This document shows, piece by piece, positions 29,224 to 62,457 of a DNA stretch of 64,000 nt (position 1 is its first letter; each line of letters opens with the position of its first letter). This DNA comes from Chitinophaga pinensis (GTDB lineage: Bacteria; Bacteroidota; Bacteroidia; Chitinophagales; Chitinophagaceae). The notes below the pieces were generated by a model, which was not told the origin of the DNA, did not search any database, and saw nothing but the letters and a program-made list of their open reading frames with translations. The translations under genes were made by a program, and so were the position numbers. The stretch is taken from the NCBI GenBank assembly GCA_945860605.1, contig CAMAQL010000002.1:1-64000 (forward strand), in the 5' to 3' direction.

Positions 29224-29304
29224 AATTTAGACAATAATACGAATGCTAGACGAGCTTTCGAGCACTGCGCAGAGCGAGGATAGAATTTGTATTATTTCTA
29301 AATT
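29224..29304. repeat. Long near-perfect inverted repeat element (81 nt)
   Basis: Left arm aatttagacaataatacgaatgcta; right arm revcomp aatttagaaataatacaaattcta; GC-rich apical part. Confidence 0.8.
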
Positions 29305-42615: not shown

Positions 42616-43506
42616 CTACCGATTGAATAAGAGACTAACCCATCCATCTAGGGGTTGGGCTTCTTGGAATATCCAAGATTTTGAACCCGCCAATTCAATC
42701 ATATCTAATTGATCCTCAATTAATAACCCACTCAATACCAAAATTCCACCTGGTTTGCTGGTGAGGGTTAATTCCTCCATATTGGCTTCTATAATATGCC
42801 TATTGACATTGGCTAAAACAATATCATATTGGTCTTTTTGCAAGGCAGATGCCACTTTTTCAATCGTAATTACTTTGGATGCGTTGTTTTGAATATTCTC
42901 TAATGCATTTTCTATGCACCAGTCATCATTGTCCACTGCGTGCACTTTTTTAGCACCTAATTTTTCGGCAAGGATGGCGAGAATGCCTGTTCCTGTGCCA
43001 AAATCATAGACCGTTTTGCCTTTAAAATCTAGCCTTTGCATCAACTGCATCACCGAAAATGTGGTGGGATGATGCCCTGTACCAAAACTCATTTTGGGCG
43101 TAATCTTAATATCATACTCCACTGCAGGCTCAAAATCTGGATGAAAATGCGCCCTGATTCCAACAAAGTCACCCACCCTAACAGGATCAAAATTAGACTC
43201 CCAAATGGCATTCCAATTTTGTTCTTTAATAACTGATTTAGAATAAGTTAAATGATATTGATTGAATATAATATCTAATTCATTTTGTACTGATTCAGCT
43301 TCAAATTGATCTGCCAGCATAAAGGTTTTGCAATGCCCAGCACCTATGCCTAATCTGCCTGATAAGTCCACGCCATCATTCCTACCTTCCTCCAGTGCCT
43401 CTTCATTGAAGCCTTCAAAGCCAAGTTCAGATAGTTCAGCCACCAGCAGTTCAAACTGATCCTGATTGCTAAAGTCGAAGGCTATTTGGATGTATTCTTT
43501 GGACAT
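42616..43506 (-). CDS. prmA: Ribosomal protein L11 methyltransferase
   Basis: KITPKMSFGTGHHPTTFSVMQLM, VYDFGTGTGILAILAEKLGAKKVHAVDND, VLANVNRHII. Confidence 0.93.
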   Translation of the reverse strand: MSKEYIQIAFDFSNQDQFELLVAELSELGFEGFNEEALEEGRNDGVDLSGRLGIGAGHCKTFMLADQFEAESVQNELDIIFNQYHLTYSKSVIKEQNWNAIWESNFDPVRVGDFVGIRAHFHPDFEPAVEYDIKITPKMSFGTGHHPTTFSVMQLMQRLDFKGKTVYDFGTGTGILAILAEKLGAKKVHAVDNDDWCIENALENIQNNASKVITIEKVASALQKDQYDIVLANVNRHIIEANMEELTLTSKPGGILVLSGLLIEDQLDMIELAGSKSWIFQEAQPLDGWVSLLFNR

Positions 43507-43571
43507 ATGTTTGTTTATCTAATGTATGATTGACTTTTGAATTGTAACTGTACTTATAAAGTATAAAGATA

Positions 43572-43633
43572 GTACCCCGAAGCCGATTTCGGTTCCTTCC
43601 GCATGAGGATGAGGGGTAGCTATCTTTTATACT
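43572..43633. repeat. 62-nt structured repeat, copy 1
   Basis: Shares ccgatttcggttccttccg(c/t)atgaggatgaggg(g/a)tagctatcttttatact with copy 2; stem TACCCC/GGGGTA. Confidence 0.85.
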
Positions 43634-43652
43634 CATAATTATTAAAAATTAC

Positions 43653-43714
43653 TTATCCCAAATCCGATTTCGGTTCCTTCCGTATGAGGATGAGGGATAG
43701 CTATCTTTTATACT
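43653..43714. repeat. 62-nt structured repeat, copy 2
   Basis: As copy 1; stem TATCCC/GGGATA (compensatory C-G to T-A relative to copy 1). Confidence 0.85.
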
Positions 43715-43744
43715 TATTACAATTCATTTACTGATTATATATTT

Positions 43745-43821
43745 TATTGGAGTAAATACTATTCCGTAGCGATCGTTCGAGCTTGCGAGCGAGAGCCAAG
43801 GGATAGGAATTTATTCCAATA
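43745..43821. repeat. Inverted repeat element with GC-rich apical region
   Basis: tattggagtaaat ... atttattccaata arms around ccgtagcgatcgttcgagcttgcgagcgagagccaaggg. Confidence 0.7.
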
Positions 43822-43864
43822 TTTTTTAAGTAGCGTCTTTCACTGCAAAGTTAGCTACAAAAAA

Positions 43865-43890
43865 AATGCCCAGCGATTAGCGGGGCATTT
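43865..43890 (-). terminator. Rho-independent terminator after pnp
   Basis: Minus strand AAATGCCCCGCTAATCGCTGGGCATTTTTTTT. Confidence 0.8.
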
Positions 43891-43911
43891 TATATTTAAA
43901 ATATCTGAATT

Positions 43912-46065
43912 CTATTGTTGAGGACCTCTGTCTTCACGAGGCGCTTGCTCTGGACGAGGCAATAAAACTTTATGACTTAATTTGAACTTCCCTGTTTTAG
44001 GGTCTAATCCAATTAATTTCACTTTCACTATATCGCCTTCATTAAAGATACCTTCCATTGTTTCCAAACGCTTCCAGCTAATTTCACTAATGTGTAATAA
44101 ACCTTGTTTGCCTGGCATAAATTCAACGAAAGCACCGAACTCTTTAACGCCTTTTACAACACCTTCATATTCGTCTCCAATTTCTGGAACAGCTACAATA
44201 CCATTGATCCATCTTACTGCCGCATCAAGGCTTTCCTTGTTTGCAGAGAAGATACTTACCTCACCATGGTTGCCTACTTCCTCAATATTAATTGTTGCAC
44301 CAGTCGTTCTTTGCATTTCTTGAATAATCTTACCACCTGGTCCGATTACAGCACCAATAAATTCCTTATCAATGATGATCTTAACCATTCTCGGTGCATG
44401 TGGCTTCACATCTGCACGAGCAGCTGGTGTACACTCGTACATGGCATCCAAAATATGTAAACGACCTTTTCTTGCTTGAGATAAAGCTTCTCTCATAATG
44501 TCCATGCTTAAGCCATCTACTTTAATGTCCATTTGAACACCGCAGATACCATCACGTGTACCAGTTACTTTGAAATCCATATCTCCTAAATGATCTTCAT
44601 CACCTAAGATATCAGTTAAGATAGCATACTTGCCATCTTCTCTAGAAATCAATCCCATTGCCACACCACTTACGTGTTTTGGAATAGGCACACCTGCATC
44701 CATCAATGCCAATGAACCGGCACAAACCGTAGCCATTGAAGACGAACCATTTGATTCTAAGATATCAGATACGACACGCAATGTGTAAGGGAATAGGGTG
44801 CTATCAGGTAACATTTGCTTTAAAGAACGCATTGCCAAGTTACCATGTCCAACTTCACGACGACCAACTCCACGCATCATTTTTACTTCGCCTGTTGAGA
44901 ATGGAGGAAAGTTATAGTGTAAGAAGAATTTTGCATATTCTGCACTTGCTGCAGTTTCTTGCATCAACTCATCCAACTTAGTTCCTAAAGTAACTGTTGT
45001 TAAAGATTGTGTTTCACCTCTTGTAAATAAAGAAGAACCGTGTGGTGTAGGTAATGGTCCAATCTCCATTGCTAAAGGACGAACCTCATCTAATTTACGA
45101 CCATCTAAACGAATACGGCTATCTACCATCATATCTCTTACTACTTCCCATTTCAAGTCCTCATAATACTTACCTGCTAATCTCTTTTGCAAGTCTGTAA
45201 TTTCGGTACCTAAATGTTCTATGATTTCTTTTTTCAAAGCAGAGAATGCATCGCTTCGCTCATGTTTTGCAGAACCTAATCTTGCAATCGTATCTACTTT
45301 TGCTTTTGCAAATGCATACACTTTTTCACGAATTGCTTCGTCTTGTTCTGGTTTTTTATAATCACGTAGTTCTGTGATACCTACTATTTTTCTTAATTCT
45401 GCTTGCGCTTTAATTTGCTTGCGGATAGCTTCGTGTGCGATTTCTAAACACTGTACCAATTCTTCTTCAGAACATTCTTTCGCCTCACCTTCTACCATCA
45501 TCAAGTTCTTATCTGTAGCTGCAATGATGAATTCTAATTCACATTTAGCCAATTCCGCTTTAGAAGGATTGATTACAAATTTGCCATCAATCTTTGCAAT
45601 TCTTACTTCAGAAATAATTTCTTTAATAGGAATATTAGATACTGCCAATGCTGCTGATGCTGCTAGACATGCTAATGAATCTGGCATCACGTTCTCGTCG
45701 CTAGACACCAATGATATTAATACTTGTACATCGCACAAATAATCTTCTGGAAATAAAGGTCTTAAAGCACGGTCAATTAAACGACTCGTTAAAATTTCGT
45801 AGTCATTTAAACGCGCTTCTCTTTTGAAGAAAGAACCAGGGATACGGCCTGCAGATGCAAACTTCTCTTGGTAGTCTACGCTCAATGGGAAAAAGTCTTG
45901 TCCGTCTCTTGGATCTTTATTGGCAACCACAGTTGCTAATAAAATACAATTTCCTTGTCTGATGGTAACAGCTCCGTCTGACTGACGTGCTAATTTACCT
46001 GTCTCTATAAAAATTTCTTGACCTGGATTGATCTCGAATTTTACTGATTTTGGTTGTGATAACAT
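43912..46065 (-). CDS. pnp: Polyribonucleotide nucleotidyltransferase (PNPase)
   Basis: Two RNase PH domains, KH domain IIDKEFIGAVIGPGGKIIQEMQ, S1 domain GDEYEGVVKGVKEFGAFVEF. Confidence 0.97.
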   Translation of the reverse strand: MLSQPKSVKFEINPGQEIFIETGKLARQSDGAVTIRQGNCILLATVVANKDPRDGQDFFPLSVDYQEKFASAGRIPGSFFKREARLNDYEILTSRLIDRALRPLFPEDYLCDVQVLISLVSSDENVMPDSLACLAASAALAVSNIPIKEIISEVRIAKIDGKFVINPSKAELAKCELEFIIAATDKNLMMVEGEAKECSEEELVQCLEIAHEAIRKQIKAQAELRKIVGITELRDYKKPEQDEAIREKVYAFAKAKVDTIARLGSAKHERSDAFSALKKEIIEHLGTEITDLQKRLAGKYYEDLKWEVVRDMMVDSRIRLDGRKLDEVRPLAMEIGPLPTPHGSSLFTRGETQSLTTVTLGTKLDELMQETAASAEYAKFFLHYNFPPFSTGEVKMMRGVGRREVGHGNLAMRSLKQMLPDSTLFPYTLRVVSDILESNGSSSMATVCAGSLALMDAGVPIPKHVSGVAMGLISREDGKYAILTDILGDEDHLGDMDFKVTGTRDGICGVQMDIKVDGLSMDIMREALSQARKGRLHILDAMYECTPAARADVKPHAPRMVKIIIDKEFIGAVIGPGGKIIQEMQRTTGATINIEEVGNHGEVSIFSANKESLDAAVRWINGIVAVPEIGDEYEGVVKGVKEFGAFVEFMPGKQGLLHISEISWKRLETMEGIFNEGDIVKVKLIGLDPKTGKFKLSHKVLLPRPEQAPREDRGPQQ

Positions 46066-62067: not shown

Positions 62068-62087
62068 CTAATCAAATTGTTCTAATG

Positions 62088-62457
62088 TGGAGTCGAGGGG
62101 AGTCGAACCCCTGTCCAAACAAAGTTACCATTGGTCTTCTACATGTTTATTGTTTTATTATTTGTCGGCAATCAGCAGGAAAAACACAAACCAATTGATT
62201 ACTTAGCTGTATAGTACTTAAATAAGCGGCACAGCCTATGCTTATCGCATCCCTTTTTGTTTTGATTAAGCTAAGCAGCGGGTAAAGGGCCTACCTGCTT
62301 GCTCGGCCATAATGGAAGTTAATTCACTGAATTAAGCAGCCATGGCGTAATTTGTTTCGCCTTTTGATTGTTTGGTATTCAGATTAAAGTGCTAATTACC
62401 CAACGCACTACATGCTTACCCCAACCGCTACGCTTGCTGTCAAAACCATACGACCCC
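62088..62457 (-). ncRNA. ssrA: tmRNA
   Basis: Acceptor pairing GGGGTCG (5') / CGACTCC (3'), T-arm GTTCGACTCCCC; tag ORF complement(62332..62361) GGC GAA ACA AAT TAC GCC ATG GCT GCT TAA = GETNYAMAA. Confidence 0.93.

Follow-up and report, generated by a model that had tools for sequence, protein, structure and literature searches.

The window analysed here, a stretch of 64,000 nucleotides, contains two genes on the minus strand that, from their sequence and general knowledge, we take to be prmA and pnp. The region between them carries a tandem pair of hairpins, termed F1, and a third hairpin of similar architecture, termed F2. The features are:

42616..43506, minus strand: prmA, flanking gene (open reading frame list)
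43560..43634, plus strand: F1 hairpin, copy 1 (covariance model R1, E 6.6e-19)
43641..43715, plus strand: F1 hairpin, copy 2, tandem duplicate of copy 1 (model R1, E 1.6e-14)
43747..43819, plus strand: F2 hairpin (fold z -7.57; covariance model)
43860..43893, minus strand: ordinary terminator-like hairpin after pnp (GCCCCGC..GCTGGGC plus a T run; from the sequence)
43912..46065, minus strand: pnp, flanking gene (open reading frame list)
29228..29301, plus strand: second F2 hairpin of the window (model E 9e-7)

A tmRNA gene is also present in the window (62085-62457, minus strand; Rfam RF00023).

An earlier note on this DNA had described a pair of 62-nt repeats between prmA and pnp. A repeat search of the window located both of them where they had been placed (43573-43643 pairs with 43654-43724, 87% identity over 71 nt), but the conserved unit is longer, a hairpin of ~75 nt. 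The pair itself also stands, although the F2 hairpin, which lies 30 bp away from it and is both stronger and more widespread than F1, had been overlooked. Copy 1 combines AT-rich outer arms (AGTATAAAGATAG/CTATCTTTTATACT) with the stem TACCCC/GGGGTA, whose 3′ side carries a bulged G; internal loops of the GA/GA type and the apical hairpin CGG-TTCCTT-CCG complete it. In copy 2, the right arm repeats that of copy 1, the left outer arm is non-complementary, and the inner stem is compensated to TATCCC/GGGATA. Compared with shuffled sequences, copy 1 folds with a z score of -4.25 as RNA and -4.56 as DNA; the values for copy 2 are weaker (-2.89 and -1.46, respectively). The stem change reported earlier, a paired C-G to T-A substitution, is real and confined to one copy: 15 of 16 aligned F1 copies have C-G at this position, and U-A occurs solely in copy 2 of this genome. 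The tandem duplication is common to this genome and a relative, G013, and since the orthologous second copy of G013 has kept C-G, the change arose in the lineage of the genome studied here.

The F2 hairpin next to this pair shows arms TTGGAGTAAATAC/ATTTATTCCAA, a stem TATTCC/GGGATA with a bulged G, an invariant CGA..GAG, and the apical sequence TTCGAGC..GCGAGC. The second F2 copy of the window is located between convergent open reading frames, 14 nt from the 3′ end of the frame to its right. The terminator-like hairpin after pnp is separate from the F1 and F2 elements and is also found in relatives.

F1 and F2 follow a common plan, in which AT-rich complementary arms lead into a lower stem whose 3′ side contains a bulged G, followed by conserved internal loops of the CGA/GAG type (GA/GA) and a short apical hairpin. 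The lower stems read TACCCC..GGGGTA-G-CT in F1 and TATTCC..GGAATA-G-GT in F2. Near-invariant in F2 are the CGA and GAG motifs and the apical TTCGAGC..GCGAGC, while the stem between them and the arms vary in a paired manner. The arms are complementary within each copy, but their sequence differs between loci. In the F2 alignment, 96.4% of all cells are paired, compared with 85.2% in shuffled alignments and at most 53% with a slid partner, and 43 cells show double changes (12.8 in shuffles). For F1, pairing amounts to 94.0% with 22 double-change cells (8.1 in shuffles). These controls strongly support the maintenance of a hairpin, for which the earlier note had suggested selection. On the plus strand of the element, there are 138 G-U cells as against 10 A-C cells (75 distinct rows; binomial p 6e-30, to be taken as indicative since the cells are not independent), and still 90 as against 10 after the fixed U-G column was dropped. 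This excess means that one particular strand is kept foldable, either as RNA or as single-stranded DNA. A search of Rfam gave no family match for the elements above the gathering score.

Scanning with covariance models, as the earlier note had proposed, revealed more copies in this genome (G000; 1.64 Mb on 114 contigs) and in its relatives. The two observations that this note had named as speaking against a selected hairpin, a lack of other copies and stem-breaking substitutions in relatives, were not made: other copies exist, and the substitutions preserve the stems. F1 occurs at two further strong loci of this genome, on C3 between genes read as sodA and tadA, and on C17 adjoining carB. All three F1 loci are also occupied in G013 and G028, the sodA locus in G008 as well. 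The F2 model, built from 22 copies, has 16 matches in this genome; of 61 genomes sampled from the home genus, 30 contain F2. Among 199 genomes drawn from the order, F2 is present in two, both of which belong to the home genus, and none of the other genera sampled gave a match. In the samples searched, F1 and F2 are confined to one Sediminibacterium-like freshwater genus. Within this genus, all F2-bearing genomes measure roughly 2.3 Mb or less, and none of the sampled ones of ~2.8 Mb and more had a match, a restriction that probably marks one clade. The copy number is low (about 20), most sites are orthologous, and there was no recent burst; the copies are now mainly inherited vertically. The F2 model (R2) also matches F1 at E values of 7e-5 and 0.007, which makes the two homologous, or at least built on one common plan. 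A partial match of 28 nt on C34 of G000 (L004), situated at the start of a gene, was taken as chance.

The elements sit at gene 3′ ends, mostly where two genes converge. A total of 71 elements, a count that takes in orthologous copies, are distributed over 43 convergent, 28 co-directional, and no divergent gene pairs. Within the co-directional set, 13 elements lie in sense and 15 in antisense orientation. In this genome, 10 of 14 loci are convergent, against a baseline of five among the 27 intergenic regions in the window (p 0.0014), and several elements are found within ~25 nt of both flanking stop codons, a placement also known from REPs (PMC3733652). Having a hairpin just after convergent genes and a T-rich tract on both strands, the elements take the form of a bidirectional terminator. 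Five of 13 scanned loci of this genome (L145, L146, L148, L150, L155), all of them convergent, show no other terminator-like hairpin in a scan that overlooked the pnp terminator, which is visible in the sequence. At several other loci, a canonical terminator adjoins the element.

Comparison of orthologous sites, with both flanks aligned and collinear, revealed that the whole hairpin is inverted in place in 14 of 33 comparisons, involving nine of 13 elements; all closely compared genomes are MAGs or drafts, which is the main uncertainty for these flips. The flips recur across separately assembled genomes, and a hairpin of 75 nt is shorter than usual reads. Concatenated flanks served as a search device, and that comparison took in eight of the 13 loci. 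Between prmA and pnp, F1 is inverted in G028 and G257 and F2 in G258 and G081. This genome and G256 differ at the L146 locus by inversion of an entire two-element block; at L148, it is the single hairpin that is inverted, with flanks that are 93-96% identical. Because the inner arms moved along with the inversion, the L148 breakpoints lie in the outer palindrome.

Loss and tandem duplication are frequent as well. The prmA-pnp elements have been lost in G256 and in L050, where the junction is the short match TAGCTAC. The element of the L145 locus is absent from G028 and G258, arms included, and no hairpin of any kind is found there. F2 is present at apparently the same gene pair in G013 and G257, and next to genes of similar size in G021, G068, and G074. 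Since these other members have F2 at this site, its absence from G028 and G258 looks like loss. Tandem duplicates without a left arm occur at prmA-pnp and on C54 of G000 (L150 2308-2520), where an array of three F2-like hairpins has shortened TAAAAA loops and its second and third members lack this arm. The element-free sites resemble secondary losses or deletions, and no clean new insertion with a target-site duplication was found among the sites compared. We also considered that the locus-specific arms could stem from insertion into a pre-existing plain palindrome and rejected this, as the element-free sites contain no such palindrome. One locus resembles an exception: at L148, F2 sits within a terminator-like stem (AAAGCCCTTAG/CTAAGGGCTTTT), and G028 and G258 have an ordinary terminator instead.

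Our best reading of these data places F1 and F2 as two subfamilies within a single REP-like family of intergenic hairpins that is restricted to one genus. We give slightly better than even credence to the fuller explanation that its members act as, or inside, two-way terminators or 3′-end hairpins, a terminating role that we infer, and that their arms drive the flips. At the RNA level, the element would act as, or cap, a two-way transcription terminator or a hairpin stabilizing 3′ ends, a role that would account for where the elements lie, why their orientation does not matter, and why pairing is selected. At the DNA level, the inverted arms of 11-24 nt would permit hairpin formation while the DNA is replicated, and the centre (40-50 nt) could be flipped by strand switching or by recombination across these arms. 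The same arms may render the element prone to deletion and tandem duplication in addition to flipping, and the present copies would descend from an older spread.

Several observations speak against this reading. A canonical terminator stands beside several elements, and G028 and G258 manage without any hairpin at the L145 locus. Moreover, the strongly conserved cap sequence and the one-sided G-U excess exceed what a plain two-way terminator needs, so that this picture may lack a binding protein or a function tied to one strand. A bolder version, to which we attach only a low probability, is that these terminator-like hairpins flip in place at a high rate, in an arm-driven and sequence-independent manner, and that selection keeps a strand-specific mismatched fold recognized by a dedicated protein. 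If true, such elements could represent a second, RAYT-free class of palindromic repeats.

A rival explanation regards the elements as a dispersed structured RNA, either a 3′-UTR element or a small RNA, binding a protein or ligand via the tandem G-A motifs and the apical hairpin. The conserved CGA..GAG and apical sequences, the covarying middle stem, and the G-U excess on one strand agree with this idea, but the random orientation relative to co-directional genes, the in-place inversions, the losses at single loci, and the lack of an Rfam match speak against it, and we consider it unlikely. A cis-acting leader RNA of prmA is likewise unlikely because orientation is not conserved, the element at this very site being inverted in G028 and G257.

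REP elements lie mostly between convergent and unidirectional open reading frames, often beside 3′ ends, and occur as singles and doublets (PMC3733652). F1 and F2 resemble REPs and REPINs (BIMEs) in all these respects, being palindromic, intergenic, and repeated in the genome, and one could imagine a REP/REPIN family mobilized by a Y1 (RAYT) transposase that recognizes one folded strand and was lost or is absent from the assemblies. Doublets in inverted orientation (e.g. G000:C14, C4, and C12, and G013:C2 and C34, next to many single or direct ones) and the pairing bias toward one strand are in line with this. Members of the Bacteroidetes TnpA_REP subclass 2.6 are flanked by untagged "atypical secondary structures" that have no GTAG guide (PMC6006769). 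These structures share with F1 and F2 the phylum, the hairpins without a GTAG guide, and copies elsewhere in the genome; by description rather than by sequence, they are the nearest published relatives in kind. Unlike them, F1 and F2 occur in genomes in which, as far as tested, neither a subclass 2.6 gene nor any other Y1 gene was found.

The RAYT/Y1 transposase that the earlier note had suggested looking for is absent from G000, and no PF01797 match was obtained in G008, G013, G019, G021, or any further bearing genome that was tested, all searched as draft assemblies. Two genomes of the same genus that do encode a Y1 transposase have no F2, and the Y1 loci searched gave no F2 match in their surroundings. 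Neither a GTAG/GTGG nor a CGTC tag is found at the hairpin foot in the F1 and F2 alignments; the GTAG inside F2 lies in the region of the stem and is not shared by all F2 copies. CGTC-tagged REPs without a known transposase have been described (PMC3733652). The units also differ in size and number: F1 and F2 measure ~75 nt and occur in about 20 copies, mostly orthologous and without a recent burst, whereas REPs measure 20-40 bp and occur in hundreds. Locus-specific complementary arms and frequent in-place inversion set them further apart. Since the bearing genomes tested yielded no RAYT partner and the alignments no foot tag, we do not file them as RAYT-type REPs, and we judge mobilization by such a transposase rather improbable. 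Of the "REP/MITE-type element or a structured RNA" suggested earlier, the REP-like and structured character holds in kind, as these are small palindromic intergenic elements near gene 3′ ends and often doublets, while RAYT-driven mobility is not supported. Nor is the MITE option: there is no conserved terminal inverted repeat, the arms being complementary within a copy and different between loci.

Template-switch correction in inverted repeats can imitate compensation without selection. The elements could accordingly be neutral palindromes kept perfect by this process and scattered by chance duplication, and the high frequency with which they are inverted, deleted, or duplicated in tandem would fit. 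However, such correction ought to erase conserved mismatches, yet the bulged G and the GA/GA loops persist, which counts against correction alone. Together with the one-sided G-U excess, the convergent bias, and the cores conserved over many loci, this leaves a purely mutational origin very unlikely. Least credible of all is the idea that a site-specific recombinase flips the elements as phase-variable switches (invertons): orientation does vary between close relatives at most elements, but the arms share no common sequence to be recognized, the two putative sites are separated by just ~40-50 bp, and divergent gene pairs, in which promoters would be expected, contain no element.

For the preferred reading, a REP-like family with a terminator or 3′-end role, two further systems offer parallels. 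Bidirectional intrinsic terminators, for which compensatory evolution was shown in Bacillus cereus (PMC5381666), share with F1 and F2 the order of A-rich arm, stem, and T-rich arm on both strands, the compensatory stem changes, and the convergent genes. In contrast to these, F1 and F2 possess a conserved mismatched cap common to loci and species and form a dispersed homologous family rather than a set of unrelated hairpins. Chloroplast hairpins, according to PMC12928735, which cites Kim and Lee (2005), undergo small flip-flop inversions with repeats of 11-24 bp and centres of 5-50 bp. The small centre between inverted repeats of 11-24 bp and the recurrent flipping are alike, but here they concern a bacterium, a dispersed repeat family, and many loci in parallel.

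Palindromic repeats are common, and their origin as well as the reason for their placement at gene ends are unsettled. The unexpected part of our analysis is the family behind the stem change, that is, covarying, genus-restricted hairpins at 3′ ends that flip in place between close relatives. Because orthologous copies, losses, and repeated in-place inversions can be followed in very close relatives, selection on the fold becomes separable from mutational flipping. The data suggest that small inversions of the flip-flop type at hairpins, known from chloroplasts, occur often in a bacterial genus, a point of importance for aligning intergenic DNA.

Several variants were noticed along the way. 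Weak F1 matches in other genomes (L123, L124, L126) represent a further variant, AAGCCGACTTCGGTTCYTGCCGCGGAGGC, with different arms, and one F2 copy of G008 (C6; L008 1600-1708) has a loop enlarged by ~35 nt (AGACGCGACCAAGCGTCT..). At one site where G000 has F2, G257 carries unrelated large hairpins and an adjoining ordinary terminator (C63; L196 110-290), which shows that these intergenic regions also host hairpins of other families. Beside F1 at sodA-tadA, we observed a third kind of hairpin, F3, which reads AGTAAAAAATAGCTTTC..GTAATCC / GGATTAC..GAAACTATTTATTTACT (L014 1415-1490, L002 1432-1655). It too has a bulged G next to CTATT, and in G000 its arms flank the F1 element on both sides.
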